A stretch of DNA of 64,000 nucleotides from Stappia stellulata DSM 5886 (GTDB lineage Bacteria; Pseudomonadota; Alphaproteobacteria; Rhizobiales; Stappiaceae), in assembly GCF_000423705.1 (NCBI RefSeq), contig NZ_AUIM01000010.1, positions 310,001 through 374,000 on the forward strand, read 5' to 3'. Below are positions 42,407-60,487 of the stretch, in pieces. Every line of letters begins with the position of its first letter. Positions within the stretch are counted from its first letter, which is position 1. Position numbers and translations under genes: made by a program. Under the pieces are notes generated by a model that saw nothing but the letters and a program-made list of their open reading frames with translations, was not told the origin of the DNA and made no database searches.

Positions 42407-44380
42407 ATGGCGTCTGGATCCGCATCGCCGCAGGTGGCGCATATCACCGAAATCGAGCGCGTCCTCAACGGACAGATGTCGACGCGCGACGACGTGGTGG
42501 TGGAATCCTGGAAACGCTGCGTGCGAGAGCACGGGCTCGATCCAGCGCGCTCGCAACCGGCTTATATCGTGCCCGACAGCCAGTTGCGCGCCCATCGCGA
42601 ACAATCCGAACGGCTGATCTCGATTGCCCGCAGCGGCATCGAGAACCTGTTTCGCCAGGTCGCGGGACAAAACTACGTGCTGCTGCTTGCCGACCGAGCC
42701 GGGATCACGGTCGATTATTTCGGCGATCCCGCCTTCGAGGACGACTTGCGCCGGGCGGGCCTTTATCTCGGCGCCGACTGGTCGGAAGACCTCGTCGGCA
42801 CCTGCGGCGTCGGCGCCTGCATCGCCACCGGCCAACCGATGACGATCCATCAAAGCGACCATTTCGACGTCGCCCATACGCCGCTCAGCTGCACCGCCGC
42901 GCCGATCTTCGACACCGGAGGCAATCTCTCCGCCGTGCTCGACATTTCGCTGTTGCGCTCGCCGCAACCCAAGGCAAGCCAGCATCTGGCGCTGCATCTG
43001 GTCACGGCCTCCGTGCGCCGCATCGAACTGGCCAACCTGATGGCGACCATGCGCCGGGACTGGGTGTTGCGGCTGGCGCATTCGCCGGAGTTTCTCGACG
43101 TCGATCCGGAGGCGGCGGTAGCGCTCGACGCCTCCGGCCGCATCATCGGCCTTACCCATGACGCCGCCTCGATCCTGGGCCGGGCCGACGGCAAGGGATT
43201 GCGCGCGCCTTCCGCCTATATCGGCGCAGCGCTGTCCGACTTCTTCGACATCGGCATCGACGACCTGCCGGCGCTGACGCGCGGCCGCGCGGCGGAGGAC
43301 CGCGTTGCCCGTCTCAAGGACGGCTCGGCCATCTTCTGCCATGCCATTGCACCGACGACACTTCGCCAGGCAGTCCGGCCGTTTGCCAGAGCGATCCCGG
43401 CGGCGCTGAAGGGGCTCGGCGGCGATGACGCCGACATGAAATCCCTGCAACTCAAGGCAGCCCGCCTTGCCGACGAACCATTGCCGATCCTGATCACCGG
43501 CGAGACCGGCAGCGGCAAGGAACGGCTGGCCCGCGCCCTGCACCGGAGCCGGACCAGGCCCGGCCCCTTCGTCGCGGTGAATTGCGCCGCCATACCGGAA
43601 GCGCTGATCGAAGGCGAATTGTTCGGCCATGCGCCCGGCGCCTTTTCCGGCGCGCTGTCGAAGGGCCGCCCCGGCCTGATCGAGGAAGCCGACGGCGGCG
43701 TGCTGTTTCTGGACGAGATCGGCGACATGCCGCTTGCGCTGCAGGGGCGGCTGTTGCGCGTGCTTTCGGAAGGCGAGGTCACCCGGCTCGGCGAAGCGCG
43801 CGCGCGTCCGGTCAGGGTCAAGACGGTTTCGGCGACCAACCAGGATCTCGCCATGCTGCTGGAGACCGGGCGGTTCCGCCACGACCTTTACTATCGCATC
43901 GCGGCGGCGACGCTGGCACTGCCGCCGCTGCGGGCGCGCACCGACTTCGAATGGCTGCTCGACCGGCTGCTGACCGGAATCGGCACCGAGCGCGGCCAGC
44001 GCCTGCGTCTCGACCCCGCCGCGCGGCTCGCGCTGATCCGCAGGGACTGGCCGGGCAACATTCGCGAACTCGTCAACGTTCTCAATGTCGCGGCAGCAAT
44101 GTGCGAGGACGCCACGATCTCGCCTGAAGACCTGCCGCACGACGCCTCGGACCGCGGCACGCCCGACAAGGGGCCGGGAATGCCGTCCGCCCTTTCGCCT
44201 GTCCGCGCCCGCACGCCGGGGCCGCGTGCCGACAGCCGTACCGGCGCGGCGACGACGGCAGCGGGCCTCGCCGAGATCCTGGCGGCCTGCAATGGCAACA
44301 TCAGCGAAACGGCCCGGTATCTCGGTGTGGACCGCACGACGGTCTACCGCCGCATGCGCCGCCTCGGACTGATGCACTGA
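42407..44380 (+). CDS. AcoR-like sigma-54-dependent transcriptional activator
   Basis: A 657-residue enhancer-binding protein. An N-terminal GAF-like sensor region (about 60-200, GTCGVGACIATGQPM) is followed by a spacer. The AAA+ domain has Walker A GETGSGKE (365-372), the sigma-54 contact loop as GAFSGA (411-416; Ser for the usual Thr), Walker B FLDEIGD (434-440) and an arginine-finger region. A Fis-type HTH ends the protein (about 620-655). AGGGAGG precedes the ATG. A sigma-54 promoter and palindromes downstream belong to the next gene, its probable target. The ligand is unknown; AcoR relatives sense acetoin, alcohols or ketones. Confidence 0.93.
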   Translation: MASGSASPQVAHITEIERVLNGQMSTRDDVVVESWKRCVREHGLDPARSQPAYIVPDSQLRAHREQSERLISIARSGIENLFRQVAGQNYVLLLADRAGITVDYFGDPAFEDDLRRAGLYLGADWSEDLVGTCGVGACIATGQPMTIHQSDHFDVAHTPLSCTAAPIFDTGGNLSAVLDISLLRSPQPKASQHLALHLVTASVRRIELANLMATMRRDWVLRLAHSPEFLDVDPEAAVALDASGRIIGLTHDAASILGRADGKGLRAPSAYIGAALSDFFDIGIDDLPALTRGRAAEDRVARLKDGSAIFCHAIAPTTLRQAVRPFARAIPAALKGLGGDDADMKSLQLKAARLADEPLPILITGETGSGKERLARALHRSRTRPGPFVAVNCAAIPEALIEGELFGHAPGAFSGALSKGRPGLIEEADGGVLFLDEIGDMPLALQGRLLRVLSEGEVTRLGEARARPVRVKTVSATNQDLAMLLETGRFRHDLYYRIAAATLALPPLRARTDFEWLLDRLLTGIGTERGQRLRLDPAARLALIRRDWPGNIRELVNVLNVAAAMCEDATISPEDLPHDASDRGTPDKGPGMPSALSPVRARTPGPRADSRTGAATTAAGLAEILAACNGNISETARYLGVDRTTVYRRMRRLGLMH

Positions 44381-44430
44381 CGCGCGGCACCCGGCCAACG
44401 ATCCCGTCCACGCGGCTGCGCGCGTCCCGC

Positions 44431-44482
44431 TGTTGCAGCGCTGCTGTTGCGCGCAACGATGCAACAGTGTTGCACGCAACAG
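44431..44482. promoter_or_regulatory. Enhancer cluster of TGTTGC/GCAACA palindromes
   Basis: Overlapping repeats: TGTTGC at the start, GTTGCGCGCAAC (44446-44457), TGCAACA-G-TGTTGCA (44460-44474) and TGTTGC-AC-GCAACA (44468-44481). They lie about 100-150 bp upstream of the sigma-54 promoter, the normal distance for an activator site of an AcoR-type protein, which is encoded immediately upstream. Confidence 0.75.
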
Positions 44483-44578
44483 CCGTGTGACGCGCTCGCC
44501 CGGAGTGTCGCCGGCGAGCGGGCGAATTTTCCCTGATCTTTCAGTCACGGCACCCGCGTGCCGGAGAGCCGGGGCAAG

Positions 44579-44593
44579 TGGCACGGGCCTTGC
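44579..44593 (+). promoter_or_regulatory. Sigma-54 promoter of the flavin monooxygenase gene
   Basis: TGGCAC-GGGCC-TTGC: a perfect match to the -24 (GG) / -12 (GC) consensus with correct spacing. Transcription would start near 44605, leaving a leader of about 70 nt before the ATG. Confidence 0.85.
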
Positions 44594-44676
44594 GATCCAT
44601 CGCGCAGCGGACGCGGGCCGGAAGGGGCCAAGACGTCCGCGCAACACCTGTCGAAAATCCCATGGGAGGGAACCGA

Positions 44677-46476
44677 ATGCTCGATACATCGCCGAACGCC
44701 AAGGCCCAGGGGGCACTGTCCTCGCTCGACGAGGCGCTTGCTGCCCGCGACATCGACCGGGCCGTGGCGCTGTTTCAGGACGATTGCTACTGGCGCGACC
44801 TCGTCACCTTCACCTGGAACGTCAAGACGATGGAAGGAAAGGACGAGATCCGGGACATGCTCTCGTCCCAGCTCGCAACGGCAAAGCCGTCGTCCTGGCA
44901 ACTTGCCGAGGGCGAGGACGCCACCGAGGACGACGGCGTGGTCACCGCCTGGATCACGTTTGAAACATCTGTCGCACGCGGCTTCGGGCTGATGCGGCTG
45001 AAGAACGGGCTGATCTGGACGCTTTTGACCTCGATGACCGAACTGAAGGGCCACGAGGAGCCGCTCGGCTTCGAACGTCCGCTCGGCGCGCGCCACGGCG
45101 CGGCGAAGAACTCCAAATCCTGGGCGGAGGCGCGCGAGGAGGAAGCCCGCACGCTCGGCTTCGAGACACAGCCGCATACGGTGATCGTCGGCGGCGGACA
45201 GGGCGGCATCGCGCTTGGCGCACGGCTGCGCCAGCTTGGCGTGCCGACCATCATCATCGAGAAAAACCCGCGCGCCGGCGACAGCTGGCGCAACCGCTAC
45301 AAGTCGCTCTGCCTGCACGATCCGGTCTGGTACGACCACCTGCCCTATCTGCCGTTCCCGCCCAACTGGCCGGTCTTCGCGCCCAAGGACAAGATCGGCG
45401 ACTGGCTGGAGATGTACACCCGCATCATGGAGCTGAACTACTGGTCCTCCACCACGGCCAAATCCGCGCGCTACGACGAAGATGCGGGCGAGTGGATCGT
45501 GACGGTGGAACGCGACGGCAAGGAAATCGTGCTGCGGCCGAAGGAACTGGTGCTCGCCACCGGAATGTCCGGCAAGGCGAATGTCCCCGACTTCCCCGGC
45601 ATGGACCGCTTCAAGGGCGACCAGCACCATTCCTCAAAGCACCCCGGCCCGGATGCCTACAGGGGCAAGAAGGCGGTGGTGATCGGCTCCAACAATTCCG
45701 CCCACGACATCTGCGCCGCGCTATGGGAGCACGATTGCGACGTCACCATGGTGCAGCGGTCCTCCACCCATATCGTGAAATCGGACACCTTGATGGATGT
45801 GGGGCTCGGCGGGCTTTACTCGGAGCAGGCGGTGGCCAATGGCGTCACCACGCAAAAGGCGGACATGATCTTCGCCTCGCTGCCCTACCGGATCATGCAT
45901 GAGTTCCAGATCCCGCTCTACGAGGAGATGAAGAAGCGCGACGCGGATTTCTACGAAGGCCTCGAAAAGGCCGGGTTCCAGCTCGACTGGGGCGCGGACG
46001 GCTCGGGTCTCTTCATGAAGTACCTCAGGCGCGGTTCGGGCTATTACATCGACGTCGGCGCCAGCCAGCTGATCATCGACGGCGAGGTCAAGCTCAAGGC
46101 CGGACAGGTGAGCGAGATCACCGAAACAGGCGTGAAGCTCGACGACGGGACGGAGCTTCCCGCCGATCTCATCGTCTATGCCACCGGCTACGGCTCGATG
46201 AACGGCTGGGCCGCCGACCTCATCAGCCAGGAGGTCGCGGACAGGGTCGGCAAGTGCTGGGGCCTTGGCTCCGACACGCCGAAGGATCCCGGCCCCTGGG
46301 AAGGCGAGCAGCGCAACATGTGGAAGCCGACACAGGTGCAATCGCTGTGGTTCCACGGCGGCAACCTGCATCAGTCGCGGCATTACTCGCTCTATCTGGC
46401 GCTGCAGCTCAAGGCGCGGATGGAAGGGATCGACACGCCCGTCTACGGGCTGCAGGAGGTGCATCACACCGGCTGA
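44677..46476 (+). CDS. Flavin-containing monooxygenase with N-terminal SnoaL-like domain
   Basis: A 599-residue protein in two parts. Residues about 1-130 form a SnoaL/NTF2-like domain. From about 165 it is a class B-like flavoprotein monooxygenase: the FAD GxGxxG is VIVGGGQGGIALGARL (about 169-184), the FMO fingerprint-like FKGDQHHSSKHPGPD near 315, and the NADPH site is VVIGSNNSAHDICAAL. A final ATG motif (LIVYATGYGSM) is typical of FMOs. It probably oxygenates a small organic substrate (amine, sulfide or ketone) and is expressed from a sigma-54 promoter. Substrate unknown. GGGAGGGAACC precedes the ATG. Confidence 0.88.
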   Translation: MLDTSPNAKAQGALSSLDEALAARDIDRAVALFQDDCYWRDLVTFTWNVKTMEGKDEIRDMLSSQLATAKPSSWQLAEGEDATEDDGVVTAWITFETSVARGFGLMRLKNGLIWTLLTSMTELKGHEEPLGFERPLGARHGAAKNSKSWAEAREEEARTLGFETQPHTVIVGGGQGGIALGARLRQLGVPTIIIEKNPRAGDSWRNRYKSLCLHDPVWYDHLPYLPFPPNWPVFAPKDKIGDWLEMYTRIMELNYWSSTTAKSARYDEDAGEWIVTVERDGKEIVLRPKELVLATGMSGKANVPDFPGMDRFKGDQHHSSKHPGPDAYRGKKAVVIGSNNSAHDICAALWEHDCDVTMVQRSSTHIVKSDTLMDVGLGGLYSEQAVANGVTTQKADMIFASLPYRIMHEFQIPLYEEMKKRDADFYEGLEKAGFQLDWGADGSGLFMKYLRRGSGYYIDVGASQLIIDGEVKLKAGQVSEITETGVKLDDGTELPADLIVYATGYGSMNGWAADLISQEVADRVGKCWGLGSDTPKDPGPWEGEQRNMWKPTQVQSLWFHGGNLHQSRHYSLYLALQLKARMEGIDTPVYGLQEVHHTG

Positions 46477-46499: not shown

Positions 46500-46529
46500 A
46501 CGGGCGCGGGGACATCTCCCCGCGCCCGT
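46500..46529. repeat. 13-bp perfect hairpin after the monooxygenase gene
   Basis: ACGGGCGCGGGGA and its exact complement flank CATC, 24 nt after the stop. No T-run follows on the plus strand. It is nearly the same stem as the terminator 200 bp further on. Confidence 0.7.
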
Positions 46530-46716
46530 ACGCGTGGCACCAAACTCCGAAGGAGCGTCTTCCCGGCCGAATGCAATGAGAGCCGGGATCGGAGGGGCAC
46601 GGCCTGTCGGCTTCGTTTGGCTTGAGAAACACAGGCTTTCGGCTCTCCGATACCGGGTCGCGCTGACGCCTGCCCGGTATGACGCCCGGAGCAACGCCAG
46701 CCTTGCCGGTATCCTG

Positions 46717-46750
46717 ACGGGCGCGGGACGTTATCCCGCGCCCGTTTTTT
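46717..46750 (+). terminator. Strong intrinsic terminator between the FMO gene and dabA
   Basis: ACGGGCGCGGGA and its exact complement (loop CGTTA) are followed by T6. It is the second copy of the hairpin seen just after the monooxygenase stop. It also separates the convergent dabA gene. Confidence 0.88.
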
Positions 46751-46766
46751 CCGGGATGCGTTAGGG

Positions 46767-49226
46767 TTACGCCGCCTCATCCGCGTGGAGTGCGGGCGCC
46801 GGGGCGGTGACATTCGTCCAGTCCTCGAAGGCAAGATCGCCGGCGTAGCGCGCCGAAATCCGGCCCGCGTCGTCCATCGCGAAGAGCGAGACCCAGCCGC
46901 TGTCGAGCAACTGCCTGACGCCCGCCTGGCGGGCAATCACGCCGAGGATCGCCTCCTGCGGCGCCGCGATCACCACCGACAGCCGCCGCGGGGCATGAGC
47001 CGGCATCTCGCCGTCATGCAGCGACTGGAACGGCAGGCCGACGCGCAGATCGCCGCCGCCGCCCTCCAGCACGCCGATGCCGCCGACGACATTGTGCAGC
47101 ACCTTGTTGCCCGAGCCGAAGACCTCCTGATCGACGCTCGAGCCGTAGTACTGGAGGTTGATCCAGCTCGCGACCACCATCGGCGCGGTCATCACCACCT
47201 CCAGCACGCCGAAGCCCTCGTCGGCTCTCCAGTCGTAGGTGTGCAGGAAGGCCCGGCCGCCGAGGTCGACATTCATGGTGCGCGCGCGCGGCGCCGCAAT
47301 GAAGGCGGAGCAGCCCGCCAGACCCCACTCGGGCCGCACCTGCGCCCAGTCGGCGGCGCGCGATGCGATGTCGGTTTCGCTCGCGCCGGCAATCCGCAGC
47401 GCCCGCTCCGCCCGCGTCAGCTGGCCGGCGGCCTCCAGCGCCTGGCCAAGCCGGGCGAGATCGTCGGCATGGGAGGCCGGGACCGTCTCGGCGTCGAGGA
47501 TCGCGACCCTGTCGGTCGTGGTGTCATGCAGGCCCGCGACCGCGACCGTGTCTTCGGGAAGCGCGATGCCGCGCTCGGCGAGTGCTTTGCGCACCTGCGG
47601 GTCGTTGAGGACGGCGGCTGCGACCCGGGCATTGGCCTCGCCCGACTGGCCGCCGCAGGCGCCGCAGTCGAGCCCGTGGGCATGCGGATTGTTGCGGCTG
47701 GTCGCACCGTGACCGACGAGAAAGACGATCCGGGCAAAGCCGTCGGTCAGCGACATGCCCCGCAAGGCTCCTTCCGCCGCCGCGATGCGCTGCTCCAGCG
47801 GCAGGCCGGTTGCCTGGCTGCCCGCATGCGACGGCGCGAGCGCCGGCGGCGCGTCGGTGAGCCGTGCGTCCGGCCGCGTTCTCCGACCGAAACCATCGCT
47901 CGCGAGCTTGCCGAGATAGGCAAGCCCCGCCGTCTCGACGAAGGCGAAGGAGGAGACGGCGGCAAGCTTGAACGCCGACCAGGCAGACGCCATCCGCTTT
48001 GCAAGCGCCACCCGCTCGATGGAATGCGTCGCAGCGCCCTCCGCCGCCCCCCCCTCGCAAACGAAGGCCTGCGGCGCGAGAAGCACGGGACAACGTGCGC
48101 TGCCCGTGTCGTCTCCCTTGCGCTTGTAGGAAATGGCGAAGCCGAAGAAGCCGGCAAAGCCCAGCGTCGCGATCTGCGGCGCGACGCTTTCCAGCGACCG
48201 CCGATAGACCTCGGAGCGCACATCGATGCAGAAGACCGCCTGCACGCCGGGCCGCGCCGGCGCGTCCGCCGAGACGGGTGCTGCCGTGTTGCCGGCCTCC
48301 AGATCCCGTGCCAGCCGGCGCGCGTCCGCCCGCTCCAGCGCCGTCTGCAACAGGCAATCGAGCTGCACCGCCCGCGCGGGCTGTTCGCTCGCGGCATAGG
48401 CGGCAGTCGCCACCTTCCATCCCTCGACCACGGCCGGAGTGTCAGCGGTCGCCCGTAGCAGCGCGAGTTCCCAGGCGAGCCGGATGGCGAGAAGCTGCAA
48501 GGGCGTGTCGTCGCTCCTGCCCTCAAGCCCCGCCTGCCAGGCGGCATGCCGCGCGACGGCCGCCCAGCCGCCGACGCTCATCAGGAGCCGGTGGAAATAC
48601 AGCTCAAGGGCCTCGCCCTCCAGACCGAGCGCCGCGCCCGCCTGCTCGATGAGCGCCGCCGCCGTCTCCGGCAGGGTGGCGAACTGCGCCCGAAGGCCGG
48701 TGAGACCGGCGAGATCCGGCGTCCGGTCGATCCGCGCATCCATCAGCCAGCCGGCGTAAAGACCGTCGACGGGCCGTGCCCAGGCCGCCTGTCCGGTATC
48801 GAAGGCCGTCGCCGCATAGGCGGAAATCCGCTCGACGACGAGATCGTTCCAGGTGCGCCCGCCGGCTTCGCCGGCAAGCTCAACCAGTGTCGGCAGCGGT
48901 GTCGCGTCGGTCTCGGGCAGGCTGTGAGCCAGCGCGATCAGCGACGTCGCGTCGGCGGGCAAATCCCCGCCCGGCATCTCGGCGCGCGCGGCCAGAAGAT
49001 CCTCCGGCGCGATCTCGCCGGCCTCGAGCGCGGCAAGATAGACGCCGCGCGGCTGCAGGGTCCTGGCCCCGGCGACCCGGGACAGCCGCAGTGCTGCCTG
49101 CGGCAGGGAGAGATCGGCCATCCCGAGGTAGGGATTGACGGCGACGAAGGACTGCAATGGCCACACCGGAGCGACACGGGCGCAGGCGGCTTCAGCAGCG
49201 ACAAGGGTTTTGGTCTGAGCGGTCAT
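46767..49226 (-). CDS. dabA: DabA, DUF2309 carbonic anhydrase-like subunit of an inorganic carbon pump
   Basis: A 819-residue DUF2309 protein. All four predicted zinc/active-site residues of the beta-carbonic anhydrase-like site are present: Cys333 and Asp335 (FCIDVRSE), His506 (VGHGATSRNN) and Cys521 (GLDCGACGG). The spacing (171 and 15 residues) matches the Halothiobacillus DabA. The protein hydrates CO2 vectorially when coupled to DabB. The ATG chosen (MTAQTKTLV) is 10 nt after the dabB stop on the same strand. The reading frame extends into the dabB 3' end but is not conserved there. Confidence 0.9.
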   Translation of the reverse strand: MTAQTKTLVAAEAACARVAPVWPLQSFVAVNPYLGMADLSLPQAALRLSRVAGARTLQPRGVYLAALEAGEIAPEDLLAARAEMPGGDLPADATSLIALAHSLPETDATPLPTLVELAGEAGGRTWNDLVVERISAYAATAFDTGQAAWARPVDGLYAGWLMDARIDRTPDLAGLTGLRAQFATLPETAAALIEQAGAALGLEGEALELYFHRLLMSVGGWAAVARHAAWQAGLEGRSDDTPLQLLAIRLAWELALLRATADTPAVVEGWKVATAAYAASEQPARAVQLDCLLQTALERADARRLARDLEAGNTAAPVSADAPARPGVQAVFCIDVRSEVYRRSLESVAPQIATLGFAGFFGFAISYKRKGDDTGSARCPVLLAPQAFVCEGGAAEGAATHSIERVALAKRMASAWSAFKLAAVSSFAFVETAGLAYLGKLASDGFGRRTRPDARLTDAPPALAPSHAGSQATGLPLEQRIAAAEGALRGMSLTDGFARIVFLVGHGATSRNNPHAHGLDCGACGGQSGEANARVAAAVLNDPQVRKALAERGIALPEDTVAVAGLHDTTTDRVAILDAETVPASHADDLARLGQALEAAGQLTRAERALRIAGASETDIASRAADWAQVRPEWGLAGCSAFIAAPRARTMNVDLGGRAFLHTYDWRADEGFGVLEVVMTAPMVVASWINLQYYGSSVDQEVFGSGNKVLHNVVGGIGVLEGGGGDLRVGLPFQSLHDGEMPAHAPRRLSVVIAAPQEAILGVIARQAGVRQLLDSGWVSLFAMDDAGRISARYAGDLAFEDWTNVTAPAPALHADEAA

Positions 49227-49236
49227 CGGTCGATCC

Positions 49237-50877
49237 TCATGCTTTGCTGTGGCCGGGGGCGGTGTAGGCGCCGGCGAGACGGTTGAAGAGCGTGTTGACG
49301 TAAAGGCCGTTGGCGAGATGAACACGCGCGGCGCGCCAGGACGGCGAGGCGGCGCGCGCCGGCTCAACCATCTGGAACAGCGTCACGACACCGAAGGAGA
49401 CGACCGCCAGCAGCATGACGGCGATCCCGGCGGCATCCGCAGCCGGCGGCGGCGGCAGCACCCCGGCATAGAGCGTTTGCGCCAGGGCATGCAGCGCGAG
49501 ATAGGCGAGCGTGACCGCAGCGGAGACCGCAAGCAGCCGGCCGAGCGGCAGCGGCGGCGTGGCCGCCGTGTCGCCCGTCGCAGCCTCCGCATCTTGCGGG
49601 CCGGCGTGAACCAGCATCAGGGTGAGGCCGAAGACCAGGATCGCGCCCAGCGCGATCGCCTGGGGCGAGGCGGCAGCAGTGCCGGCGGCGGTGTCGGCAA
49701 AAAGCCCCAAGAGGAGCGCCGAGAAGGCGAGCGAGAGCGCGACGGCGACGGTGAGCGCAAGCCCACCGGCAAGAGCGATCCGGCCCGGCGCGGGCGAGAG
49801 CCTGGCCAGCGCCCGGGTCTCGCCGACCGTCTCGGCGGCGCTGCCGGCGGAGAGGAAGGCATGGGCCTTGTAGAGCGAATGGGCGACCAGATGCAGGGTG
49901 GCAAGCGCGAAGAGGCCGAGGCCGCATTGCAGCAGCATGAAACCCATCTGCGCAACCGTGGACCAGGCCAGCGACACCTTGACGCTGGTCTGGGTCAGCA
50001 TCACCACGGCGCCGAAGAGCGCGGTAAAGCCACCGACAATCGCAAGCAGATGCAGCGACGGCGTGAAGAGCATCAGGACATCGGCGAAGCGGATCGCCAG
50101 GAACCCGCCGGCATTGATGATGCCGGCATGCAGCAGCGCGGAGACCGGGGTCGGCGTGTCCATCACCTCCGGCAGCCAGCCGTGGGTGGGGAAAGCCGCC
50201 GACTTGACCAGGGCGGCAAGCGCGATCAGCACCGCCGCGACCCCGACCCCGGCGGGCGCGGCCTCCATCCGTGCGGCCTCGCCAAGGATCGTCGCGATGT
50301 CGGTGGTGGCGAAGGCCAGCGTCAGCGGCACCAGCGCGCCGATCAGAAGCAGGTCGCCAAGCCGGGCGGCGATGAACTTCTTGCGCGCCGCGATCACCGC
50401 CCGCCGCCTGTCCGCGTAGAAGACGAGAAGGCCATGGAGCGCGAGGCTGGTCGCGATCCAGGCGAAGGCCAATTGCACGGTGTTGCCGCTGGTCACCAGC
50501 AGCATCACGGCGGCGAGCGTCAGGCAGAGCCTGCCCATGAAGACCCCCTGCCGGGCATCGCCGTCGAGATAGGTGGTGCTGAAGCGGATCACCACCGCCC
50601 CCACTGTCGCGACAAGCGCCAGCATGGTGACGCTGAGGGCGTCGAGCCGCACCGACAGGCCGATCCCGCCCGCGCCGACCAGCGGCGAGGTGAGCGGCCC
50701 CAAGATCACGAGCACAACGGCACAGGCAAGGGCTGCGGCAAGCGCGACAAGGGATGCGATGCCGGCGAATGCAAGCGCGCGGCGCGGGCGCATGCCCGGA
50801 TCCTTGCGTGCGACATAGGCGGCACCCAGCAGGGCGGCAGGTGCGAGAAAGGGAAGAAAAGCAACCATCGGGGTCAT
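49237..50877 (-). CDS. dabB: DabB, NuoL/MrpA-like proton-translocating subunit
   Basis: A 546-residue membrane protein of the complex I NuoL/Mrp antiporter family: about 14 helices, with the Proton_antipo_M signature ALVKSAAFPTHGWLPEVMDTPTPVSALLHAGIINAGGF (shown in part: FPTHGWLPEVMD and SALLHAG). In Dab systems it energises CO2 uptake with the cation gradient. It is shorter than NuoL and pairs with dabA directly downstream, confirming the type. Two candidate ATGs are 10 bases apart; the upstream one is used. Confidence 0.9.
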   Translation of the reverse strand: MTPMVAFLPFLAPAALLGAAYVARKDPGMRPRRALAFAGIASLVALAAALACAVVLVILGPLTSPLVGAGGIGLSVRLDALSVTMLALVATVGAVVIRFSTTYLDGDARQGVFMGRLCLTLAAVMLLVTSGNTVQLAFAWIATSLALHGLLVFYADRRRAVIAARKKFIAARLGDLLLIGALVPLTLAFATTDIATILGEAARMEAAPAGVGVAAVLIALAALVKSAAFPTHGWLPEVMDTPTPVSALLHAGIINAGGFLAIRFADVLMLFTPSLHLLAIVGGFTALFGAVVMLTQTSVKVSLAWSTVAQMGFMLLQCGLGLFALATLHLVAHSLYKAHAFLSAGSAAETVGETRALARLSPAPGRIALAGGLALTVAVALSLAFSALLLGLFADTAAGTAAASPQAIALGAILVFGLTLMLVHAGPQDAEAATGDTAATPPLPLGRLLAVSAAVTLAYLALHALAQTLYAGVLPPPPAADAAGIAVMLLAVVSFGVVTLFQMVEPARAASPSWRAARVHLANGLYVNTLFNRLAGAYTAPGHSKA

Positions 50878-50954
50878 GTGAGCCTCCAGAACGATCCGTC
50901 CGGCAGGGGATAGCAGAGGCAAAACGATCTATTAAATTCATTGTCTGGATGTTA

Positions 50955-50979: not shown

Positions 50980-51930
50980 ATGGCCGCGCTGAACTACAAT
51001 CACCTGCGCTATTTCTGGGCCGTGGCGCATGAGGGCAACCTGACCCGCACCGCCGAGCGGCTGAATGTGTCGCAATCGGCGCTGTCGACGCAGATCCAGA
51101 AGCTTGAGGCACAGGTCGGTCATGCGCTCTTCCTGCGGCGCGGCAAGCAATTGCATCTTACCGAGGCGGGGCGGATCGCGCTCGACCATGCGGATGCGAT
51201 CTTCGCAGCCGGCGCGGAGCTGGTGGCGACCCTGACCGGAAGCGGCGCGCCGGCGCGTCAGGTCATTCGCGTCGGCGCGCTGTCGACGCTCTCGCGCAAC
51301 TTTCAGGTCGCTTTTCTGAAGCCGCTTTTGTCGCGCCAGGACGTCGAGGTGGTGCTGCGCTCGGCAAGCCTCGGCGAATTGATCGCGGCACTCGAAGCCC
51401 TGCGCCTCGACGTGATCCTCGTCAACCAGCCTCCGGCACGCGACGCGGCCACGCCCTGGATTGCGCACCGGCTCGCCGAACAGCCGGTCAGCCTGGTGGG
51501 CACACCGCATCGCACCGAACCACATGCCGGCGACCTCATGCGGTTGATTTCCGACAACCCGCTGATCCTGCCGCCGCTGGAAAGCAGCGTGCGCACGGGC
51601 TTCGACGCTCTGGTCGACCGCCTCGGCCTGCGCCCGAGGATCGCGGCGGAAGTCGACGACATGGCGATGATGCGCCTTCTTGCGCGCGAGGACATGGGGC
51701 TTGCGGTCGTCCCGCCAATTGTTGTTCAGGACGAACTGGCAAGCGGCCGGCTGCGCGAGGCGGCGAGGCTTCCCGCCCTTGGCGAGACCTTTTACGCGGT
51801 AACGCAGGCACGCCGCTTCCCCAATCCCCTGGTCGCGGAGCTGCTTCGGGAGGTGGAAGGCGACACGGACGCGACCGCAGGGCGGACACGTCCGGAAGGA
51901 GACGGCGTGGCGGATACACCCCCACACTGA
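50980..51930 (+). CDS. LysR-family regulator divergent from dabB (NhaR-like)
   Basis: A 316-residue LTTR. The N-terminal winged HTH (MAALNYNHLRYFWAVAHEGNLTRTAERL and SQSALSTQIQKLE, shown in part) resembles the NhaR subgroup; the effector domain (about 90-300) follows. It is divergent from dabAB with a 102-bp gap, the usual position for the regulator of an inducible operon. In other bacteria LysR genes accompany dab loci, so control by CO2/bicarbonate status is an inference. The C-terminal tail is low in complexity. Confidence 0.9.
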   Translation: MAALNYNHLRYFWAVAHEGNLTRTAERLNVSQSALSTQIQKLEAQVGHALFLRRGKQLHLTEAGRIALDHADAIFAAGAELVATLTGSGAPARQVIRVGALSTLSRNFQVAFLKPLLSRQDVEVVLRSASLGELIAALEALRLDVILVNQPPARDAATPWIAHRLAEQPVSLVGTPHRTEPHAGDLMRLISDNPLILPPLESSVRTGFDALVDRLGLRPRIAAEVDDMAMMRLLAREDMGLAVVPPIVVQDELASGRLREAARLPALGETFYAVTQARRFPNPLVAELLREVEGDTDATAGRTRPEGDGVADTPPH

Positions 51931-58930: not shown

Positions 58931-60487
58931 CTACGGCGTTCTGGCCCGCTTTTCGCGCCGACGCTGCACCGAGGACGGAATACGCAGGGATTCCCGGTAC
59001 TTTGCAACCGTTCTTCGGGCGATGTCGACACCATCTCCCTGCAGCACCTTGACGATGGTATCGTCGGACAGAACCGCATCGGGCGCCTCCGCATCGATCA
59101 GGGCCCGGATCCTGTGGCGCACCGCCTCGGCCGAATGGGCGTCGCCGCCGCCGCTGGCGGGAATCGAGGCGGAAAAGAAGTACTTCAGCTCGAAGATGCC
59201 GCGCGGCGTCGCCATGTATTTGTTCGAGGTTACCCGACTCACGGTCGATTCATGCATCGAGATCGCATCGGCGATGGTGCGCAGGTTCAGCGGCCGCAAA
59301 TGCTCCACCCCCTTCGTCAGGAACGCATCCTGCTGGCGCACGATCTCGCTGGACACCTTGAGGATCGTGCGCGCACGCTGGTCGAGGCTCTTGGCCAGCC
59401 AGTTGGCGGTCTGAAGGCAGTCGCTCAGGAAGGTCTTCTCCTCCTCGGCACGCGCCTGGCGGCTGACGGTTGCATAGTAGGTCTGGTTCACCAGAACCCG
59501 GGGCAGCGTGTCACTGTTGAGCTCCACCGACCAGCCGCCGTCGCGGGCCGGCCGCACCTGGACATCCGGCACGACAGGCTGGATCAGCGTCGCGCCAAAA
59601 GCACTGCCGGGCTTGGGATCGAGCGCACGAAGCTCGGCGATCATCTCGGCGAGATCCTCGTCGTCCACCGCACAGGCAGCGCGCAGGCCCGCATAGTCGT
59701 GGCGCGCCAGGAGGTCGATGTTCTCGATCAGCCGGGCCATCGCCGGGTCGTAGCGGTTCCTGTCGATCAGCTGCAGCTTGAGGCATTCGGCAAGCGAGGT
59801 GGCGAAGACACCCGAGGGTTCGAGTTTTTGAAGCGCCGCCAGAATCCCGTCCAGGCGGGCGCGCTCGATGCCCATCTGCGCCGCCGTGTCGTCGAGTTCG
59901 AGGCGCAGGTATCCGGCCTCGTCGAGATTGTCGATCAGCGTGCGCGCGATCAGCCGGTCGACCGTGTCGGTGAGAACGAGCACCATCTGGTCCGCCAGAT
60001 GCTGCTGCAGCGTCATCTCCGAGGCGACAAAGGCCTCCAGGTTATAGTCCTCACCGCCGCCGCCCGAGCCGCGCGAGGCTCCGAGGCCGCCCTGAAAGGG
60101 ATCGCGCTGCAAGGCCTCGCCCGCCGCGCCGCCGTTTTCCTGGGCCGTGCGCGTGCCGGGATCGTCGGGGTAGACATTGGCAAGATCGGTGTCGAGACGC
60201 CCGGCGATCTCCTGGGCGCTGTCGGAGAGTTCCGAGCGGATCCATTCGCCATCGGACTCGCCCCCTGCCTCCGTGGTGGCGGGATCACCGGCGCCCGGTT
60301 CGGCCGGATCGCCAGGCTGCCCCTCTCCCTCGACGCGTTCCAGCAGGGGATTTCGCTCCATCTCGGCCTCGACATAGCTCGTCAGGTCGAGACTCGACAT
60401 CTGCAAAAGCTTGATCGCCTGCATCAGCTGCGGCGTCATGATCAGGGACTGACCCTGACGGATTTCAAGCTTCGGCGACAGGGCCAT
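58931..60487 (-). CDS. rpoN: RNA polymerase sigma-54 factor
   Basis: Alternative sigma factor needed for -24/-12 promoters, such as the one upstream of the flavin monooxygenase gene in this window. The 518 residues contain the Gln-rich region I (LEIRQGQSLIMTPQLMQAIKLLQMS in part), an acidic region II (about 60-140), the core-binding and HTH regions, and the RpoN box ARRTVAKYRE (490-499) that contacts the -24 element. The conserved order with lptB upstream and hpf-ptsN downstream is present. Confidence 0.97.
   Translation of the reverse strand: MALSPKLEIRQGQSLIMTPQLMQAIKLLQMSSLDLTSYVEAEMERNPLLERVEGEGQPGDPAEPGAGDPATTEAGGESDGEWIRSELSDSAQEIAGRLDTDLANVYPDDPGTRTAQENGGAAGEALQRDPFQGGLGASRGSGGGGEDYNLEAFVASEMTLQQHLADQMVLVLTDTVDRLIARTLIDNLDEAGYLRLELDDTAAQMGIERARLDGILAALQKLEPSGVFATSLAECLKLQLIDRNRYDPAMARLIENIDLLARHDYAGLRAACAVDDEDLAEMIAELRALDPKPGSAFGATLIQPVVPDVQVRPARDGGWSVELNSDTLPRVLVNQTYYATVSRQARAEEEKTFLSDCLQTANWLAKSLDQRARTILKVSSEIVRQQDAFLTKGVEHLRPLNLRTIADAISMHESTVSRVTSNKYMATPRGIFELKYFFSASIPASGGGDAHSAEAVRHRIRALIDAEAPDAVLSDDTIVKVLQGDGVDIARRTVAKYRESLRIPSSVQRRREKRARTP

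Follow-up and report, generated by a model that had tools for sequence, protein, structure and literature searches.

Which compound does an alphaproteobacterium sense and oxidize when a sigma-54 activator gene directly precedes the gene for a flavoprotein monooxygenase (FMO)? The question is raised by a locus of Stappia stellulata DSM 5886 lying within a 64,000-nucleotide stretch of contig NZ_AUIM01000010.1 (hereafter the window, meaning this whole stretch), where an AcoR/DhaR-like activator, a half-site array, a promoter of the -24/-12 type, a ribosome-binding site, and a SnoaL-FMO fusion gene follow one another. These elements had been read from the letters alone in an earlier note on this DNA, and all of them were found in place. 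Here, we mainly focus on two observations made across orthologous loci, namely that GAFTGA-type activators and -24/-12 promoters show a conserved coupling, and that the FMO family is linked to 2,3-butanediol dehydrogenases (BDHs). Taken as a whole, the locus may well be an inducible sigma-54 switch for a C4 ketone of the 2,3-butanediol/acetoin group, acting via a type II(b) FMO, a reading towards which we lean with modest confidence. The features on which the argument depends are as follows.

42407 to 44380, plus strand: activator gene, encoding an AcoR/DhaR-like sigma-54 enhancer-binding protein of 657 aa (open reading frame, domains, loop motif).
44431 to 44481, no strand assigned: putative enhancer (upstream activator sequence) array, with TGTTGC at 44431-44436, 44445-44450, and 44468-44473, and GCAACA at 44461-44466 and 44476-44481.
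44453 to 44458: near half-site GCAACG inside the putative array, one near copy beside the five exact half-sites.
44579 to 44593, plus strand: -24/-12 promoter TGGCAC-GGGCC-TTGC (TGGCACGGGCCTTGC), from a motif scan and conservation at orthologous loci.
44664 to 44670, plus strand: purine-rich ribosome-binding site GGGAGGG, read directly, just 5' of the ATG at 44677.
44677 to 46476, plus strand: SnoaL/NTF2-like plus FMO flavoprotein monooxygenase gene, encoding a type II(b) FMO of 599 aa (domains, match to PDB entry 8ACS).
44731 to 45018, plus strand: SnoaL_2 domain of this enzyme (Pfam, residues 19-114), holding the cavity residue Asp41, with Thr118 just after it.
58931 to 60487, minus strand: rpoN, encoding a sigma-54 factor of 518 aa with AID, CBD, and DBD domains.

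The hallmarks of a sigma-54 enhancer-binding protein are all present in the activator, including Walker A (GETGSGKE), a GAFTGA-type loop (GAFSGA), Walker B (VLFLDEI), and a DNA-binding helix-turn-helix. Its Pfam domains comprise GAF (residues 78-208), Sigma54_activat (339-503, 4.9e-59), an AAA lid, and a Fis-type HTH_8 (622-652). Upstream of the FMO gene lie both sequence elements expected of a sigma-54-dependent promoter, TGGCAC-N5-TTGC and upstream activator sites. The promoter is the sole exact match to TGGCAC-N5-TTGC within the window. When up to one mismatch was allowed, the window held four -24/-12 matches against 4.4 expected, which is not above chance, so the case for the promoter rests on its exactness, position, and conservation. 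Transcription would start about 12 bases 3' of the element, near 44605. The arrangement TGTTGC-N0-12-GCAACA occurs twice in the 64 kb (0.02 expected), both times in the array, and in the 4.6-Mb genome the palindrome with N2-10 spacing is found at nine places, two of them in this array, and the reversed control pattern at one. A sigma-70 promoter scan found none against 0.5 expected. The only gene with a Sigma54_DBD domain found in the genome is the rpoN gene inside the window.

The locus was compared across 125 orthologous loci, comprising the best 80 of 576 confirmed scan matches, 39 hand-picked loci drawn from two overlapping lists of 75 and 47 places, five annotated plasmid loci, and the window itself. 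Neighboring genes in this GC-rich DNA were identified by tblastn with reference proteins together with a codon-trained gene caller; some fetched stretches were short on one side, so that the absence of a neighbor there may reflect missing sequence. An AcoR-like activator adjoins the FMO gene or lies within four genes of it at 65 of the 125 loci. A promoter was scored when the 200 bp preceding the first gene, be it FMO or BDH, held a -24/-12 element with no more than one mismatch, and by this measure it is present at 40 of the 43 loci with a GAFTGA-type activator and at none of the 22 whose activator lacks the loop. Over all 125 loci, 40 have both a GAFTGA-type activator and the promoter, three the activator only, five the promoter only (5/82 loci without such an activator: L033, L041, L053, L062, and L142), and 77 neither. 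The raw association between loop and promoter over the 65 loci (Fisher 1.9e-14) is inflated by shared ancestry, because the loop was lost only once on the activator tree, which leaves one independent pair. On the FMO tree, nine independent pairs differ in the activator, and the promoter differs in the same way in 6.5 of them on average, in the opposite way in none, and not at all in 2.5 (median p 0.016, range 0.008-0.125 over pairings). At least two half-sites within 420 bp upstream were found at 36/65 loci with an activator and at 5/60 without, the shuffled rate being about 1%. This conservation of loop and promoter supports the earlier proposal that the adjacent activator controls the gene, and the window circuit is very probably under sigma-54 control. 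At one activator-less Mesorhizobium locus, a 44-aa stretch just upstream of the FMO gene (L030:9774-9905) is 61% identical to activator residues 12-55; it is probably the remnant of a deleted activator.

The activators without the loop form a natural contrast. All 22 (L004, L005, L019, L021, L026, L040, L047, L048, L058, L061, L077, L081, L083, L089, L093, L129-L131, L135-L137, and L015) belong to one clade, which arose by one change on the activator tree (support 94, not starred), and the window activator is the sister of that clade (the starred set of 23). The GAFTGA segment is deleted outright in 21 of them, L015 carrying an unrelated GEWLAE, and the acidic (DE) pair of Walker B is intact in L015 alone. 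The upstream 200 bp hold a GTTGC-N4-GCAAC operator at 21 of these loci, again all but L015 (1/4400 in shuffles); the exact arrangement recurs at only 1/43 GAFTGA-type loci, which indicates that the half-site core is shared and the layout is specific to the loop-less clade. In the two annotated records, L004 and L005, the activator is labeled sigma-54-dependent; the activators of the clade are probably sigma-54-independent regulators. The comparison supports the sigma-54 reading of the window, which has kept both the loop and the promoter. GAFTGA-less NtrC proteins of Rhodobacterales (Rhodobacter) and of Caulobacter have been reported to act at sigma-70 promoters (PMC10274813), and the sister clade resembles them in that the L1 loop was lost within a lineage of enhancer-binding proteins. 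It differs from them in being AcoR-like, in keeping the Walker B pair in only 1/22 members, and in having the GTTGC-N4-GCAAC operator and no -24/-12 element, whereas the window activator differs in retaining both loop and promoter. For AcoR-like proteins, no paper listed by a literature search on this loop and this order contains the word Rhodobacterales.

The window FMO is a member of the known type II(b) FMO family. Its SnoaL_2 domain (residues 19-114) is followed by FMO and Pyr_redox domains, the FMO core beginning at about residue 166. Its top PDB match is JsFMO (8ACS; E 1.9e-289, nearly full length; next match 1.1e-20), with 406 of 596 aligned residues identical (68%), and a match to 8ACS is also obtained with just the N-terminal part (2.3e-47). 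The sequence features that define type II(b) FMOs are present, namely an NTF2/SnoaL-like N-terminus of about 160 residues, the catalytic His, Asp, and Tyr with the structural Arg, and a GxNxxA motif replacing GxGxxG in the NAD(P)H domain (GSNNSA, 337-342); promiscuity between NADPH and NADH and Baeyer-Villiger activity count as further traits of the family. His214, Asp215, Tyr456, and Arg568 correspond to His216, Asp217, Tyr458, and Arg571 of JsFMO and are invariant in all 124 aligned orthologs (L125, whose reading frame broke off early in the extracted sequence, was left out of the FMO tree and the residue counts). Type I Baeyer-Villiger monooxygenases carry the fingerprint FxGxxxHxxxW, from which the window FMO departs (F312-K-G-D-Q-H-H318-S-S-K-H322, with His where Trp is expected). 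The SnoaL cavity of JsFMO has two polar residues, to which Asp41 and Thr118 correspond, both likewise invariant in 124/124 orthologs. Positions at least 99% identical among orthologs number 19/125 in the SnoaL domain and 183/435 in the core; the domain is thus less conserved than the core, yet these two residues do not vary, a hint that the cavity does something.

The likeness to JsFMO extends over the domain order, the catalytic and structural residues, GSNNSA, and the cavity Asp and Thr. JsFMO is described as a Baeyer-Villiger monooxygenase that oxidizes ketones, and Baeyer-Villiger chemistry, which the earlier note had suggested, is probable for the window FMO given the 68% identity and the conserved catalytic residues. 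The same note had called the SnoaL domain unusual, which was mistaken. Type IIb FMOs are described as the N-terminally extended group, with the extension assigned to the NTF2-like superfamily (PMC7570161), and the domain is present in the 8ACS crystal structure; the fusion is therefore a family trait and not an oddity. FMO-E, -F, and -G of Rhodococcus jostii, whose extension is given as about 160 residues, and PsFMO A-C of Pimelobacter are placed in the same family with a similar extension by their published descriptions (PMC10028610; PMC7570161). The earlier note had also named, as counting against its view, a SnoaL domain that is standard in a characterized family of known substrate; the first half of this holds, but no natural substrate appears in the part of the literature covered. 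JsFMO itself differs from the window FMO in having been studied as a biocatalyst, and neither a regulator nor a natural substrate is named in the passages covered.

What the enzyme acts on is suggested by its neighbors in relatives. A BDH, called beside the FMO at more than 150 bits, adjoins it at 30 of the 125 loci and lies one gene off at one more (L005, Dinoroseobacter), giving 31 in total. One BDH type stands upstream at 18 loci and another downstream at 13 (the weakest, L117, at 43% identity), with five of the downstream cases (L113, L117, L120, L121, and L125) coming from genomes that belong to other classes of the same phylum; two types at two positions imply more than one origin of the linkage. 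On the trees, the BDH state requires at least 11 changes, and gains and losses are both possible. Both types have (R,R)-butanediol dehydrogenase as top PDB match (6ie0, 3.7e-131 and 3.3e-61). In Dinoroseobacter shibae, the gene order is activator, FMO, acetoin reductase, and butanediol dehydrogenase, and the short-chain dehydrogenase/reductase (SDR) there scores 349.0 bits with the curated acetoin reductase model, above its cutoff of 304.35; in Shinella and Pararhizobium, the order is activator, butanediol dehydrogenase, and FMO. No dehydrogenase of the BDH kind adjoins the FMO at the Sagittula and Sinorhizobium meliloti loci. In a draw of 398 genomes of the phylum (FMO at E 1e-200 or better, downstream-type BDH at E 1e-80 or better), 38 had the FMO, 11 the downstream-type BDH, and eight both (Fisher p 4.5e-7). 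The two genes stand side by side in seven of the eight, G582 having them on different contigs; those seven are also among the 31 linked loci, so this test is not a separate sample. The earlier description of a one-enzyme response with no dehydrogenase partner thus holds at the window locus but not in many relatives, where a BDH adjoins the FMO, and this pairing gives the guess of acetoin an independent basis.

According to the reading we favor, a small molecule, acetoin by best guess and diacetyl next, would be recognized by the activator through its GAF domain. Bound to the TGTTGC/GCAACA array some 120 bp upstream, the activator would use the AAA+ ring and the GAFSGA loop to open the sigma-54 holoenzyme (E-sigma54) at the exact -24/-12 promoter. 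The type II(b) FMO so produced would work as a Baeyer-Villiger monooxygenase, presumably on the same substrate as its dehydrogenase-linked relatives. With acetoin, which as the actual substrate is plausible but still tentative, oxygen would be inserted beside the acetyl carbonyl to yield 1-hydroxyethyl acetate, which would fall apart into acetate and acetaldehyde, an oxygen-dependent route that bypasses the acetoin dehydrogenase complex. A precedent is the acetol monooxygenase of Mycobacterium Py1 (Hartmans and de Bont 1986), which reportedly cleaves a small alpha-hydroxyketone oxygenolytically to acetate and an aldehyde; it differs in having a C3 substrate and in giving formaldehyde and not acetaldehyde, and it is likened by reaction, not by gene. 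From its two linear ketones, JsFMO is reported to give identified products that are all acetates, which is the regiochemistry needed for acetoin cleavage. As a parallel, not as evidence, 2,3-butanediol is listed as a urinary biomarker in mice without FMO5, itself a Baeyer-Villiger monooxygenase (PMC9393927). A text search of a limited set of papers returned no match for 'acetoin monooxygenase' or five similar phrases, and among the matches listed by a broader search (15 of 42) no such enzyme appeared in the titles or the openings of the abstracts.

Several observations weigh against an acetoin switch, and some of them suit a different ketone. No BDH stands beside the FMO at 94/125 loci, and among the five FMOs closest to that of the window on the tree (L015, L141, L126, L039, and L058) only L058 is BDH-linked. 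Neither BDH type has a close homolog in the window genome (at best 28% for one; 39% over 230 residues, 113 bits, for the other), nor does any gene there exceed the cutoff for acetoin reductase (259.6 at best, against 304.35). The FMO stands without an adjacent activator at 60/125 loci, 23 of them in Mesorhizobium, so the circuit is not obligatory. The AcoR likeness of the activator is a likeness of predicted architecture (GAF, AAA+, and Fis helix-turn-helix, as in AcoR/DhaR-type proteins), no characterized AcoR having been compared; DhaR is its top NCBIfam model at 279.7 bits, far under the 551-bit cutoff of the equivalog NF008485. Classical targets of AcoR and DhaR are the genes for acetoin dehydrogenase or dihydroxyacetone kinase, and the apparent target here is a monooxygenase. 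As for the enzyme, JsFMO and related type II FMOs are reported to accept cyclobutanones and bicyclic ketones, on which JsFMO performs far better than on linear ketones; the rates given for its two linear ketones are 0.08-0.38 mU per mg, 24- to 73-fold under the best substrate and slightly above those for sulfides, and the word 'acetoin' is absent from the main text of the JsFMO paper. It may be that the relatives differ from JsFMO or that small polar ketones do better. The BDHs, too, may act on other vicinal diols. In place of acetoin, diacetyl, or their like, the same sigma-54 circuit might thus serve butanone, acetol, acetone, or a ketone of the cyclobutanone-like or bicyclic sort, with the BDH neighbors serving another diol or being co-regulated for some other reason. 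We consider this less likely than the acetoin reading, since the link to butanediol/acetoin recurs with both BDH types, in several gene orders, and in more than one class, and one operon contains a curated acetoin reductase.

Two further explanations are of much lower probability. Detoxification instead of catabolism, with the FMO removing diacetyl or other ketones arising from the cell's own acetolactate synthase, would fit the ilvD gene that adjoins the FMO in Sagittula and the acetolactate synthase genes (ilvB-like, named by eye) in the fetched stretch at 26/125 loci. However, 24 of these 26 are Mesorhizobium loci within one synteny block, so that the linkage counts about once, and the linkage to BDH and acetoin reductase suggests the use of outside C4 compounds; we regard this explanation as improbable. 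Still more improbable is a heteroatom oxygenase for trimethylamine, dimethyl sulfide, or an amine under sigma-54 control, compatible as it is with the FMO fold and with a weak reported sulfoxidation by JsFMO at rates close below those for its linear ketones. Trimethylamine, a candidate of the earlier note, is disfavored by the trimethylamine monooxygenase model NF058570 (39.8 bits vs a cutoff of 675), and the clusters of neighboring genes, judged by eye, showed no conspicuous linkage to amine or sulfur genes. Sulfides, also among its candidates, are poor JsFMO substrates, with reported conversions of 14-24% after 24 h vs >99% for the best ketone; they are disfavored only mildly, because the linear ketones are nearly as poor.

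The surroundings of the locus and of the genome add some context. The window genome has an E1-alpha/E1-beta/lipoyl cluster at about 901-905 kb of its contig C1, whose matched models fit pyruvate or acetoin alike, and its two best acetoin reductase matches (259.6 and 216.9 vs 304.35) adjoin this cluster; together with these reductase-like genes, the cluster means that a classical acetoin route may exist in this genome. The stretch around it (L151, G000:C1:890000-909000) comprises an SDR, an M24-type protein (DddP-like by eye), E1-alpha and E1-beta, a double-lipoyl E2-like protein, an aldehyde dehydrogenase, and a second SDR. A terminator scan found terminator-like sites at chance level. Two similar GC-rich inverted repeats, seen by eye 3' of the FMO gene at 46501-46530 and 46715-46752, the latter followed by a T run, were not returned by that scan. 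Next on the minus strand come open reading frames for DabA (46767-49367; PF10070, 5.8e-254) and a DabB-like partner with Proton_antipo_M (49237-50922), a pair predicted to be a DAB-type inorganic carbon transporter, which a divergent LysR-family gene adjoins (50980-51930, plus strand).

What is new here is a physiological lead, a testable substrate, acetoin or diacetyl, for a known enzyme family. More broadly, and as a possibility that we put forward with some doubt, the FMOs of this clade could be acetoin (acyloin) oxygenases that take the place of the thiamine-dependent acetoin dehydrogenase when 2,3-butanediol is broken down aerobically, the SnoaL cavity with Asp41 and Thr118 possibly handling the labile hemiacetal ester, and one clade could have made its sigma-54 activator sigma-54-independent, leaving the window circuit as the nearest branch still of the sigma-54 type. 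On the regulatory side, the loci would form a natural series in which one circuit occurs both under sigma-54 control and free of it, the window activator being the nearest branch that keeps the loop. If true, the catabolic proposal would add a new branch to the ways in which rhizobia, roseobacters, and some other Pseudomonadota break down acetoin and 2,3-butanediol.

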